From Salinirubellus salinus (GTDB lineage: Archaea; Halobacteriota; Halobacteria; Halobacteriales; Haloarculaceae): DNA of 64,000 nucleotides. Positions 30,009 to 36,213 of the stretch are shown here, one piece after another. How positions within the stretch are numbered: position 1 is the stretch's first letter; each line of letters starts with the position of its first letter. The notes beneath the pieces were generated by a model that saw nothing but the letters and a program-made list of their open reading frames with translations, had not been told where the DNA came from and searched no databases. The stretch lies in NCBI RefSeq assembly GCF_025231485.1, contig NZ_CP104003.1, positions 1,922,001 to 1,986,000 on the forward strand, read 5' to 3'. Made by a program: the position numbers and the translations under genes.

Positions 30009-30758
30009 GTGTGTACGCTCATCCTCGCGTGGCAGGCCTTCGAGGACACCCCGGTCGCCGTGGCGGCGAACCGCGACGAGGCCGACGGCCGGCCGGCCGA
30101 GCCGCCGCAGGTCTGGGAGTCGAACCCGGGGGCCCGGTTCGTCGCCCCACGCGACGCGGAGGCCGGCGGGACCTGGATCGGGTACAACGAGCGCGGCCTG
30201 TTCGTCGGCATCACCAACCGGTGGCAGAACGTCGACGACCTCGCCAGCGAGCGCTCGCGTGGCCTGCTGGTCCGCGACGCCCTCGAACGCGAGAGCGCGA
30301 GCGAGGCGCGCCGGCACGTCGAGACCGAACTCGACGCCCGCGAGTACCAGCCGTTCCACCTCGTCCTCGCCGACGCCGAGGCGGCGTACTTCCTCGAGTG
30401 GAACGGAGAGGTTCGCGTCCGTGCGTTCGACCCCGGTGTCCACGTCGTCGTCAACGTCGGCGCCGACGGCGAGTACTTCGTCCCCGACCGACGGCCCGAG
30501 GTGGGCGAACGACAGGCTCGCGACACCGACCGCGTCATCGAGGCCATCGAGCCACGTGACGGGGAGACGGCCGCCGAGTGGACCGAGCGCGCCCGCGCCA
30601 TCCTCGGCGACCACGAGTACGGCCGGTGCATCCACGGCGACGGGTTCGGGACGAAGTCGAGCACCGTGCTCCGGGTCGGCCCGAGCGGTGGCGCCGTGGC
30701 GCACGCCGAGGGGAAACCCTGCGAGACCCCGTTCGAGCGCATCGAGACACCGTTCTGA
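30009..30758 (+). CDS. NRDE/TANGO2-family protein
   Basis: A 249-residue protein beginning MCTLILAWQ and containing the family motif NRDE (AVAANRDEADGR, residues 18-30). Processed members place the N-terminal Cys2 as a possible Ntn-hydrolase-like nucleophile, which is conserved here. The remaining blocks (WIGYNERGLFVGITNRW, HGDGFGTKSSTVL) also fit. Eukaryotic TANGO2 has been linked to haem and lipid handling; the archaeal role is not established. GTG is the start because the Cys must follow the first residue. Confidence 0.85.
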   Translation: MCTLILAWQAFEDTPVAVAANRDEADGRPAEPPQVWESNPGARFVAPRDAEAGGTWIGYNERGLFVGITNRWQNVDDLASERSRGLLVRDALERESASEARRHVETELDAREYQPFHLVLADAEAAYFLEWNGEVRVRAFDPGVHVVVNVGADGEYFVPDRRPEVGERQARDTDRVIEAIEPRDGETAAEWTERARAILGDHEYGRCIHGDGFGTKSSTVLRVGPSGGAVAHAEGKPCETPFERIETPF

Positions 30759-32077: not shown

Positions 32078-33445
32078 ATGAGCAGTCCCGAGGTTGCCGT
32101 CGTCGAGTTCCTGTTGACGGCGGAGTTCTACACCGAGCACACGCAGTTGGACGAGCGTGACCTGCCACCACAGTACCGGCGCGTCTTCTGGAACGACGGC
32201 GAGGTCGAGCGCCCACTGACGACGACGGGCAACACCGCCGCGGCCGCCACCGGCGTCGACCGGCCGTGGGACGCCGTCTCCGGTCTGATGTTCACCGACC
32301 GGGACGACTTCTCCGGCTCGCTCTCGCTCACCGACCGCGACATGGCCGCCGAGTGGTACCTCCAGCGCGTCGAGGCCGAGGACGTGGCCGCGAACCCCAC
32401 GCTCGCGTACGCCATCGGCGAACAGGTCGACGTGGACTACGAACGCGCCCGCGAGTCCAACCGCCCCATCCACGCCGACCGGGTCTGGATCGACGGCCTG
32501 CTGGACGAGATGTTCGACGAGGACGACGAGGAGATGCTCGACCTCGTCGACGTGAAAGCGCCCGAGGAGGTCGAGATAACGCTCGACGACCTCGTGCTCA
32601 CCCGCGACCAGGAGGCGGAGATCGAGAAGGTCATGAAGGCCATCGAGCACCGCGACTACCTCGCCTCCATCGGCCTGCGCGAGATCGGCAAGCTCCTGTT
32701 CGTCGGCCCGCCGGGCACCGGGAAGACCTCGGTGGCACGGGCGCTCGCCCGACAGCTCGAACTCCCGTTCGTCGAGGTCAAACTCTCGATGATCACCTCG
32801 CAGTACCTCGGCGAGACGGCCAAGAACGTCGACAAGACGTTCGAGGTCGCCAAGCGACTCTCGCCGTGCATCCTCTTCATGGACGAGTTCGACTTCGTCG
32901 CCAAGACCCGCTCGTCGGACGAACACGCCGCCATCAAGCGCGCCGTGAACACCCTCCTGAAGAGCATCGATGAGGTCTCGCTCATCCAGGACGACGTGCT
33001 CCTCATCGGCGCGACGAACCACCCCGACCAGCTCGACGCCGCGGCGTGGCGCCGGTTCGACGAGATCGTCAACTTCCCCAAGCCCGACCGGAACATGCGC
33101 TCGGACATCCTGCGTATCGTCACCCGGCGGATGGACATCGACGGCTTCGAGCCGGACGAGCTCGCGGACCTGACCGAGGGCCTGACCGGGTCCGACCTCC
33201 GACTCGTCCTCCGCGAGGCCGTCCTCGACGCGCTGACCGAGGAACGGACCACGCTCACGCAGGACGACCTCCGCGCCGCCGTCGAGGGGTTCGAGGAGCG
33301 TGACAACCTCAAGAACATGGACGACTTCGACAACTGGACCGGCAGCACGTCGGGGTCGGACTCCGAGACCGACGCCAGCGAGAACGGCCACGCGGACCAC
33401 GACCACGCGGACCACGACCACGACCACGCCGAACACACGCACTGA
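32078..33445 (+). CDS. AAA+ ATPase with N-terminal acidic domain and His/Asp-rich C-terminal tail
   Basis: A 455-residue ATPase. Residues 1-165 are an acidic domain without a recognised fold. The single AAA module (about 168-425) has Walker A GPPGTGKT at 210-217, Walker B ILFMDEFD at 266-273, sensor-1 'LIGATNHPDQLD', an Arg-finger region (AAWRRFDE) and sensor-2 'GLTGSDLRLVLREA', resembling the FtsH/CDC48 branch but without a protease or second ring. The last 20 or so residues (ENGHADHDHADHDHDHAEHT) look like a metal-binding tail. Its stop shares one base with the start of the next gene, so both are translated together. Likely a remodelling ATPase; the substrate is unknown. Confidence 0.82.
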   Translation: MSSPEVAVVEFLLTAEFYTEHTQLDERDLPPQYRRVFWNDGEVERPLTTTGNTAAAATGVDRPWDAVSGLMFTDRDDFSGSLSLTDRDMAAEWYLQRVEAEDVAANPTLAYAIGEQVDVDYERARESNRPIHADRVWIDGLLDEMFDEDDEEMLDLVDVKAPEEVEITLDDLVLTRDQEAEIEKVMKAIEHRDYLASIGLREIGKLLFVGPPGTGKTSVARALARQLELPFVEVKLSMITSQYLGETAKNVDKTFEVAKRLSPCILFMDEFDFVAKTRSSDEHAAIKRAVNTLLKSIDEVSLIQDDVLLIGATNHPDQLDAAAWRRFDEIVNFPKPDRNMRSDILRIVTRRMDIDGFEPDELADLTEGLTGSDLRLVLREAVLDALTEERTTLTQDDLRAAVEGFEERDNLKNMDDFDNWTGSTSGSDSETDASENGHADHDHADHDHDHAEHTH

Positions 33446-34269
33446 TGGAGGTCACGCTGCTCGGCACCGGCGACACGACCGGCACCCCCACGCCGGGGTG
33501 TGGCTGCGAGACCTGTGTCGAGGCACGCGACCGCGGCGTCGAACGAACCCGCTTCTCCGTCCACGTCCACAACGAGCGGACCGACCGTTCGCTGCTCGTC
33601 GACGCCAGCCCCGACTTCCGCTACCAGTTCCTCCACCACGAGACCCCGCTCCCGAGCGAGATCCTGGTCACGCACATCCACTTCGACCACCTCGACGGGC
33701 TGGGCAACGCCTACCGACTCCTCTCGGACGCGCCGGTCCACGCTGCGGACGAGACGGACCCGAAGACCGGCGAGTCCGTCCACGAGACCATCGACCGGAA
33801 GTACGACTACCTCGACGCCGTCGACCCGACCCCGCAGACCCCGTTCGAGTCGTTCCGCGCCTGCGGGTTCGACGTGACGCTCGTTCCCGTCGACCACCCG
33901 CCGCTCGTCTGTTACGGTGCGCTCGTCGAGGACCCGGAGACGGGTGCGAGCCTCGCGCTCTCCGGTGACACGAGTTTCGGCATCCCAGCGCGGTCGAAGG
34001 CGGTCCTCGCGGGGGCCGACCTCCTGCTGGCCGACGGCATCGTCCCGGCGCACCTCTCCGAGTACCACCCGCTCGGTGGCCGCCACGAGGACAGCGAGGG
34101 GACACCTCGGACGTTCGGCACCAAACACATGACGGTGGAGGGTGCCCGGTCGCTGGCCGCGGAGCTCGACGTCGGGGAGTACCGCATCGTCCACCTGTCG
34201 CACTTCATCCCCGAGGACGAGGCGTTCGAGGACGACATGGCCGTCGACGGCGAGCGGTACGTGCTGTAG
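33445..34269 (+). CDS. PhnP-like metallo-beta-lactamase-fold phosphodiesterase
   Basis: A 274-residue metallo-hydrolase. The first metal motif is HIHFDH (His77, His79, Asp81, His82), later ligands lie in PVDHPP, SGDTSF and VHLSHF. The N-terminal Cys-rich loop GCGCETCVEA resembles the structural zinc site of PhnP, which hydrolyses cyclic phosphate esters in phosphonate breakdown, and of the related PQQ-biosynthesis-type proteins. TGATG overlap couples it to the AAA+ ATPase. No C-P lyase genes are nearby, so a phosphonate role is not implied. Confidence 0.85.
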   Translation: MEVTLLGTGDTTGTPTPGCGCETCVEARDRGVERTRFSVHVHNERTDRSLLVDASPDFRYQFLHHETPLPSEILVTHIHFDHLDGLGNAYRLLSDAPVHAADETDPKTGESVHETIDRKYDYLDAVDPTPQTPFESFRACGFDVTLVPVDHPPLVCYGALVEDPETGASLALSGDTSFGIPARSKAVLAGADLLLADGIVPAHLSEYHPLGGRHEDSEGTPRTFGTKHMTVEGARSLAAELDVGEYRIVHLSHFIPEDEAFEDDMAVDGERYVL

Positions 34270-34712: not shown

Positions 34713-36146
34713 CTACTCCTCGCGACGGACGTACCTGACCGAGCCCACCGCCACCAGCACCACCAGCGCGCCGAGGACCGAGACGATGCCGAAGCCAGCC
34801 CCGTCACCGCTGGAGCCACCGGGCGTCTGTCGGTCGGTTCCGTCCGGGGCTGTCCCGTTGCCGTCGTGTTCGACGAACTCGCCGGAGAACAGGTCCGAGC
34901 CGAGGAGCCCCTTCTTCGGGGCGAAGTCGGCCATCGCCTGCCCGCAAGCCTCGACCTCCGAGCGGGAGAACTGCGCCGAGTTCGTCAGCGAGATGCTCCG
35001 GTCGGTCCCCATGTCGGCGCTGGTCGGGCCCTTGGCCGTGTCGTCGTCACCCAGTGCGTACCGCTCGGCGTCGTACGGTTGCCACGGTGTGTAGACCTCC
35101 CAGACGACGCGACCGTCGGGGGTCACCTCCATCGTCCGGTGGCCCTTGCGGTCGACGACGAGCGTGTTGCCGTTGGGGAGGCGGTCGGCGTCACGCGGTT
35201 CGTCGAGGCCACCGCCGACGAGTTCCCACGTCCGCTCCCACTCGCCCTCGCCGGTCCGCTGCCACTCGACGACCCGGTCGTTCAGCGAGTCCGCGACGAG
35301 GATGGTGGGTGTCCCGTCCTCGCTCTCGAGGTACTGCGGGTTGTGCTGCTCGTTCATGAACCGGTAGTCGTCGTCCTCACCGAGTTTCATCGTGACCTCC
35401 TTGGTCTCCCGGTCGACGACGATGACCTGGTCGAAGTTCCGGACCGAGGCCATGTACTTGCCGGGGCCGATCTTGTCCACGTCGTTGACGTGCGTCCAGT
35501 CGTTGCGGTAGTCACCGCCACCGGACTCCGGGAAGAGGTCCGGGTGGTCGGAGAAGTTCCACTGCCACGTCACCCGCTCCTGCGTGCGGTTGTAGATGAG
35601 GAGGCGGTGGTGGAGGTCACCCTTGTCCGCGATGAGCAGTTCGTCGCCGTTGATGAGGTCCACGTCGTGCGCGTCGGTGACGTTCTGCGGGTGGAAGCCC
35701 GGCGCGTCGCCGTTGTCCCCGTCGAAGCGCTTCACCCACTCGTTCTCGTTCGCCCGCGGGTCCATCTCCTGGACGACGGTGATGCCCGGTTCCGTCGAGG
35801 TCATCAGGAGGTTGCCGTTGGCCATCGGGTCCACGTCGTAGGCCCACCAGCGCCCGCGGGCGGAGCCGTTCCACGCGTACTCGAACTCGCCGTTCGGACC
35901 GAACGACATCAGCATCGCGGGCCGTTTCTGGAACGAGTCGCCGTCGAACTTGATACCCTGCATCGTCACGAGCGTCGACCCGTTCGGGGTGCGCTCCATC
36001 GTACCGACACAGGGGTTCGGGCCGTCTGCCTGCGCGCTCGCCGTGCCGACGCCCGCGCCACCGAGGAACGCCAGCGCCGCCGTCGCGGAGACGAGCAGGC
36101 AGCCACAGAGCAGTAGCGTACCGACCCGGGGGGCCTGCTTTCGCAT
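34713..36146 (-). CDS. Arylsulfotransferase (ASST)-family beta-propeller membrane protein, paralogue 2
   Basis: A 477-residue exported protein: N-terminal signal/anchor (residues 9-30), a propeller with repeated 'D(V/A)Dx(I/L)xxGxx(L/M)' blades (DRLPNGNTLVVDRKGHRTME, INGDELLIADKGDLHH) and the conserved FMNEQHNPQ block, then a C-terminal membrane segment (about 448-468) and basic end. It has the same architecture as the protein at 9721-11040. ATG 36146 starts the signal; an in-frame ATG 9 codons upstream is an alternative. The enzymatic activity is inferred from the family name only. Confidence 0.75.
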   Translation of the reverse strand: MRKQAPRVGTLLLCGCLLVSATAALAFLGGAGVGTASAQADGPNPCVGTMERTPNGSTLVTMQGIKFDGDSFQKRPAMLMSFGPNGEFEYAWNGSARGRWWAYDVDPMANGNLLMTSTEPGITVVQEMDPRANENEWVKRFDGDNGDAPGFHPQNVTDAHDVDLINGDELLIADKGDLHHRLLIYNRTQERVTWQWNFSDHPDLFPESGGGDYRNDWTHVNDVDKIGPGKYMASVRNFDQVIVVDRETKEVTMKLGEDDDYRFMNEQHNPQYLESEDGTPTILVADSLNDRVVEWQRTGEGEWERTWELVGGGLDEPRDADRLPNGNTLVVDRKGHRTMEVTPDGRVVWEVYTPWQPYDAERYALGDDDTAKGPTSADMGTDRSISLTNSAQFSRSEVEACGQAMADFAPKKGLLGSDLFSGEFVEHDGNGTAPDGTDRQTPGGSSGDGAGFGIVSVLGALVVLVAVGSVRYVRREE

Positions 36147-36213
36147 ACCACGAGCCACCTGCCCGCGAGGCATCAGTCTTCCCTCTCACTGTCGTGATGG
36201 TCGGCCGACCCCG

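Follow-up and report, generated by a model that had tools for sequence, protein, structure and literature searches.

Introduction

The closest described relative of the ATPase treated here is Cdc48d of Haloferax (HVO_1907), which the literature, cited throughout from the passages that concern the protein, describes as having a histidine-rich C-terminus and as a contaminant of nickel columns (PMC6985049, PMC11241148); PitA and Cdc48d are named together as native proteins with histidine runs that elute from nickel sepharose (PMC11241148). Cdc48d has been called essential, and strains carrying a C-terminally truncated form are viable (PMC6985049, PMC11353702); such strains, with the Cdc48d-Ct allele, are listed in PMC6741144 and PMC11353702 and are in routine use. 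According to one account both genes underwent orthologous replacement (PMC11169840), which is at odds with the account of truncation. HVO_1907 is also identified as Cdc48d among the targets of the cell-division regulator CdrS, beside the proteasome genes panA and psmB (PMC8406309), while the cdc48d of Halobacterium located on pNRC200 (PMC1971269) appears to be a different gene of the same name.

Laboratory practice has already made the ATPase and its nickel-binding tail familiar. The passages on Cdc48d in PMC6985049, PMC8406309 and PMC11241148 are silent on a neighboring hydrolase, on how widely the tail occurs and on where it came from. Within the open-licence literature we found no paper on HVO_1905, HVO_1906 or HVO_1908, nothing relevant on a metallo-beta-lactamase beside an AAA ATPase in archaea, and neither the pairing nor the history of the tail in print.

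The Locus and Its Two Genes

The window, meaning the whole stretch of 64,000 nucleotides that was analyzed (Salinirubellus salinus, contig NZ_CP104003.1, positions 1,922,001 to 1,986,000), carries the following features, numbered from its first letter.

32078-33445, plus strand: AAA+ ATPase of 455 aa with an ATG start (ORF; Pfam AAA 1e-39 and AAA_lid_3)
32078-32461, plus strand: N-terminal domain of the ATPase, about residues 1-128, possibly winged-helix-like, without a Pfam match
32693-33274, plus strand: AAA module and lid of the ATPase, residues 206-399 (Pfam ranges)
33386-33442, plus strand: His/Asp-rich tail GHADHDHADHDHDHAEHTH, residues 437-455, disordered (sequence, pLDDT, conservation)
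33443-33447, plus strand: TGATG, in which the stop of the ATPase and the start of the hydrolase share one base (sequence)
33445-34269, plus strand: PhnP-type MBL-fold metallo-hydrolase of 274 aa (ORF; Pfam Lactamase_B_2 7.6e-16)
33499-33516, plus strand: C19-x-C21-x2-C24 of the hydrolase, to be taken with H228 at 34126-34128
33673-33690, plus strand: HIHFDH of the hydrolase, residues 77-82, predicted core of its two-metal site
34042-34125, plus strand: hydrolase loop specific to Halobacteria, about residues 200-227 (H208/G211/G212)

An AAA+ ATPase with a His/Asp-rich tail, overlapping by one base the gene of an MBL-fold enzyme, was what the initial annotation had described, and the open reading frames, the Pfam matches and the TGATG at 33443-33447 bear it out. 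The ATPase frame ends in ...ENGHADHDHADHDHDHAEHTH*. By eye, no Shine-Dalgarno-like sequence is evident just upstream of the hydrolase start, from which we reasonably infer re-initiation at the TGATG. Upstream of the pair lies a gene for a TANGO2-family protein (30009-30758, plus strand; Pfam PF05742, 1e-24), and next to the pair, at 34713-36173 on the minus strand, one for an arylsulfotransferase-like protein (Pfam PF14269, 4e-8) with what looks by eye like a C-terminal membrane anchor.

Pfam finds a single AAA module in the ATPase. Residues 210-217 (Walker A), Y243-L244-G245, D269-E270, N314 and R325-R326 are invariant in 35 aligned orthologues, and we take the last four to be, in order, the aromatic pore loop, Walker B, the sensor and the Arg finger; with this set the protein is, as far as its residues predict, an AAA+ threading remodeller. 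The N-terminal domain is modelled with a pLDDT mostly of 89-98 (residues 1-130). Foldseek gave no match to it at E <= 0.001, and the structure comparison returned many winged-helix matches of weak to middling quality (best Z 6.1 over 72 residues, none with Z >= 8), which may reflect just a common arrangement. A search with this domain alone found it in 226 of the 294 genomes of the phylum. In some orthologues, such as L205, a long Gly/Ser/Asp-rich insert interrupts the domain after about residue 43.

In the hydrolase we take C19, C21 and C24 with H228 to be the likely structural zinc set of PhnP, and HIHFDH presumably forms the core of the two-metal site, with H151, D175 and H253 as further ligands. 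Without exception, 113/113 haloarchaeal hydrolases (those readable in the fetched loci) and 34/34 hydrolases of the outgroup have the seven predicted metal ligands and the C19/C21/C24/H228 set, so that a hydrolase beside an ATPase without a tail seems no less competent than the haloarchaeal one. With its two-metal ligands, C-x-C-x2-C motif and His, the protein is predicted to belong to the broad PhnP-type MBL class. The loop marked by H208/G211/G212 is present in 112 of the 113 haloarchaeal enzymes and is a gap in all 34 from the outgroup; we rejected it as a partner of the tail, since one genome (G021) has the tail without the loop.

Identity of the ATPase

Judged from its tail, its neighborhood and the position of one lysine, the ATPase is almost certainly the orthologue of Haloferax Cdc48d. 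Like Cdc48d, it is a haloarchaeal AAA ATPase whose C-terminus is rich in histidine; no other HDHDH match in its own genome is an AAA protein, and a tailed ATPase occurs in every Halobacteria genome examined. An aIF2-gamma-like gene (named by eye) lies downstream in 53 genomes, and HVO_1901 (aIF2-gamma) is near HVO_1907 by number. Finally, NFPKPD has its Lys at position 350 in four genomes, which matches K350 of Cdc48d, the residue to which SAMP1 is attached (PMC5587910). The metal-binding capacity that had been thought probable for the tail is in keeping with the published behavior of Cdc48d as a histidine-rich contaminant of nickel columns (PMC6985049, PMC11241148).

For the hydrolase we considered HVO_2763, the NZ protein of Haloferax and a characterized MBL-fold metal-dependent hydrolase (PMC3296008), and rejected it on account of its different gene neighborhood: in the passages of that paper on its locus it is flanked by genes for an isopentenyl phosphate kinase and an ABC permease, and it appears to be monocistronic. 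On the second contig of the S. salinus genome, two AAA matches of identical score (C2:24023-24799 and C2:217115-217891) lie 193 kb apart, through either duplication or assembly redundancy.

Linkage and Age of the Gene Pair

An orthologue of the ATPase is present in 145/145 Halobacteria genomes from 59 genera (the S. salinus genome and 144 others searched, at 60-82% identity) and the hydrolase in 144/145. Coordinates place both genes on the same strand within 5 kb of each other in 112 of the 145, with gaps of 120 nt or less in 53, 121-700 nt in 24 and 701-5000 nt in 35. That the two genes might often be found apart had been named as an outcome that would speak against the idea; they are apart, on opposite strands or on different contigs in a minority, 32 of the 144 Halobacteria with both, some of which may be contig breaks, and this weakens the case for obligate co-expression. 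The one genome without the hydrolase (G002) is a single contig rated 99% complete and the sole genome of its genus in the set, a single instance of loss; even a loose search brought up no more than a stretch of an 835-aa frame, at E = 0.001.

The pairing is not peculiar to Halobacteria. Of the 173 genomes outside Halobacteria that have the ATPase, we sampled the loci of 40, from 11 families, as an outgroup, and in all 40 the ATPase is tail-less and 406-439 aa long. In 34 of these loci the hydrolase directly follows the ATPase, on the same strand and always within 150 nt; the gap is 20 nt or less in 31 of the 34, and 12 of the 34 pairs overlap by 1 or 4 nt, an overlap also seen in 12 of 66 named haloarchaeal pairs. 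In the remaining six loci the hydrolase is elsewhere (three) or absent (three). Beyond clade-specific neighbors, the 40 outgroup loci contain no third conserved member of the operon. The gene after the hydrolase is MfnF-like in 12 of them (e.g., L292 and L281; TIGR03123, 342 bits vs. a cut-off of 244 in the one member scanned) and an MfnE-like kinase is near the pair in six, a hint of a C1-cofactor context.

Across the phylum, the hydrolase is found at E <= 1e-15 in 215 of 294 genomes. Both genes are present in 213, the ATPase only in 13 (G002, seven genomes of family f11, four of f17, and G161), the hydrolase only in two (both of family f16) and neither in 66; these counts combine two tables by eye, treat related genomes as if independent and recognize the hydrolase by similarity rather than proven orthology. 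Taken together, the coupling of ATPase and hydrolase is well supported and the pairing arose before the tail did, while the 13 genomes with the ATPase only, vs. two with the hydrolase only, suggest that the ATPase also works without the hydrolase.

The Histidine-Rich Tail

We scored a tail as present where the last 60 residues of the ATPase hold at least three His plus an HxH. By this rule it is found in 145/145 Halobacteria genomes; among the loci examined by name (80 in total, one left out because a contig end cuts its C-terminus), 79/79 have it, vs. 0/40 in the outgroup. The absence of the tail from most orthologues, the second outcome that had been held to count against the idea, thus did not occur within Halobacteria and is the rule outside them: the tail is specific to Halobacteria within the phylum. 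We built a maximum-likelihood tree from 63 ATPases, namely the 40 outgroup sequences and a selection of 23 from the 145 Halobacteria with their tails cut off (midpoint root for drawing only); in it the tail-bearing rows form a single branch with support of 100/99. The simplest reading is that the tail was gained once, in the ancestor of Halobacteria, when the pair already existed.

AlphaFold2 gives a pLDDT below 50 to residues 417-455. The 145 haloarchaeal tails hold 3-12 His (median 6) and no Cys, and 132 of them contain an H-x-H-x-H run or longer; with the linker their length varies freely from 23 to 77 residues. Such variation, together with the predominance of CAC among the His codons (881 CAC, 32 CAT), might be taken as the mark of a GC-rich hexanucleotide repeat, (CACGAC)n, drifting neutrally. 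This origin is most improbable and we rejected it: the tail is retained in all 145 genomes and 59 genera, CAT codons occur in 23 of the 145, and in our control for turnover, a MoaB-like protein of the same genome that is His-rich at both ends, the His-rich C-tail is kept in just 1 of 30 orthologues (the best of the matches from 39 genomes). The tail is, then, a later addition kept by selection. The same MoaB-like protein (L325, C1:748101-748694) has a His-rich N-terminal extension that is kept in 24 of the 30, another haloarchaeal HDH-rich appendage.

Asp is the commonest residue of linker and tail (22%), which invites the idea of a halophilic solubility extension, acidic as haloarchaeal proteins are, with His carried along. 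Acidity alone needs no His, however, and every tail has at least three with an HxH, while Glu makes up merely 5.5%; we consider this explanation distinctly unlikely.

In the S. salinus genome CAYGANCAYGANCAY occurs 11 times, vs. five for the reversed control, and the HDH-rich proteins (named by eye) include a CobW-like GTPase, a ZnuA-like metal-binding protein, the MoaB-like protein and one with a zinc-finger-like start. The CobW-, ZnuA- and MoaB-like company fits a metal-related use of HDH runs and is no proof of such a use in the ATPase. Two further HDHDH proteins (L245 at C1:3210532 and L246 at C1:3326755) are uncharacterized; in one the run is C-terminal, and one has a zinc-finger-like N-terminus.

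Metal binding need not be the purpose of the tail. Related ring ATPases dock to the proteasome through their C-terminus, the very position of the tail. The tail could be a tag for docking or regulation, recognized by the proteasome or by some other protein, and bind metal incidentally. A common regulator, CdrS, for cdc48d, panA and psmB (PMC8406309) and the attachment of SAMP1 to K350 (PMC5587910) point the same way, but the free variation in length and repeat number (23-77 residues with the linker, 3-12 His) is unlike a docking motif and no HbYX-like end was seen by eye in the tails inspected, so that this proposal seems to us rather doubtful.

The initial annotation had cast the ATPase as a metallochaperone or remodeller for the hydrolase. 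In its stronger form the tail would pick up metal and pass it, by way of the ATPase, into the neighboring two-metal enzyme; the adjacent genes with overlapping ends, the full conservation of the hydrolase ligands and the binding of the tail to nickel columns (PMC6985049, PMC11241148) all agree with it. That the two proteins belong together has held up well (34/40 outgroup loci adjacent, 213/294 genomes with both). That the tail serves the hydrolase has not: 34 intact hydrolases with the same ligands adjoin tail-less ATPases, 32 unlinked genomes retain the tail (minimum 4 His, vs. 3 in the 112 linked), as does G002, where the ATPase still ends in GEHDHDHDH without any hydrolase, and tail-less strains are viable (PMC6985049, PMC11353702). 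Tail and hydrolase are separable, and since the pairing predates the tail, metal delivery cannot be the basis of the pairing. We regard a dedicated delivery arm as unlikely; delivery may still occur on the side when metal is scarce, and the basic function does not need it.

Proposed Role and Significance

Our preferred reading, to which we give a probability of roughly one half, is that of an ancient ATPase-hydrolase module to which Halobacteria later added a tail that buffers or senses metal rather than delivering it. In this module of the phylum, one gene would encode an AAA+ remodeller that works as a single ring and has an aromatic pore loop and an N-domain of its own, and the other a PhnP-type two-metal hydrolase; the two would usually be co-expressed and most likely act on a common substrate or complex, the ATPase threading or remodelling a protein or complex that is also a target of the hydrolase. 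The ancestor of Halobacteria would have gained the disordered His/Asp tail once, and all descendants examined retain it. If the ATPase forms a hexamer, about 18-72 histidines would be brought together at one face of the ring, which favors a tail that buffers or senses cellular Zn, Ni or Cu and so may tune the ATPase; the viability of tail-less cells in laboratory medium shows that it is not needed there. A bolder extension, which we hold to be improbable, makes the hexameric His/Asp crown a metal hub that captures or senses transition metals and couples metal status, through ATP-driven threading, to the loading or quality control of metalloenzymes, with the hydrolase as one client; if true, it would define a new class of metal-responsive AAA+ remodeller, in a cytoplasm of multimolar salt.

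An ATPase that is reported to be essential and occurs in all 145 Halobacteria genomes, and for which we found no job in the literature, is here given a conserved partner enzyme across the phylum. Its nickel-binding tail, the trait for which it is best known, is an addition of Halobacteria, universally kept despite survival without it in the laboratory. Tail-less strains already serve as hosts for protein production, so the role of the tail is directly testable, and any effect would concern all who use them.

Comparison With Known Systems

The name Cdc48d is ill-suited to the architecture of the ATPase. Its AAA module is 29-34% identical to those of Cdc48/p97 and PAN and has the same nucleotide-binding fold, but Cdc48 has two AAA modules, whereas this protein has one plus an N-terminal domain of its own. 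Membership of CDC48 was rejected (146.5 bits vs. a cut-off of 802.65, and a single AAA stretch), as was that of PAN (158.5 bits vs. 500; Pan1 and Pan2 models 131 and 132 vs. 750 and 700) and of FtsH, with a score far under the cut-off. The best NCBIfam score, 196.1 bits over residues 149-402, is to the anti-phage ATPase IteA (NF042959), itself rejected against a cut-off of 510; unlike IteA, the ATPase here has an MBL hydrolase as its partner and lies in the core genomes of a whole class.

The hydrolase (PDB relatives 6b9v and 3g1p) has the fold family, the three-Cys motif and the two-metal ligands in common with E. coli PhnP and PhnP-like MBL hydrolases, while its 53.9 bits against the PhnP equivalog (TIGR03307; curated cut-off 272.25) led us to reject it as PhnP proper. 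The genes that accompany PhnP in E. coli are those of C-P lyase, whereas the hydrolase described here is accompanied by an AAA ATPase and carries a loop specific to the haloarchaea.
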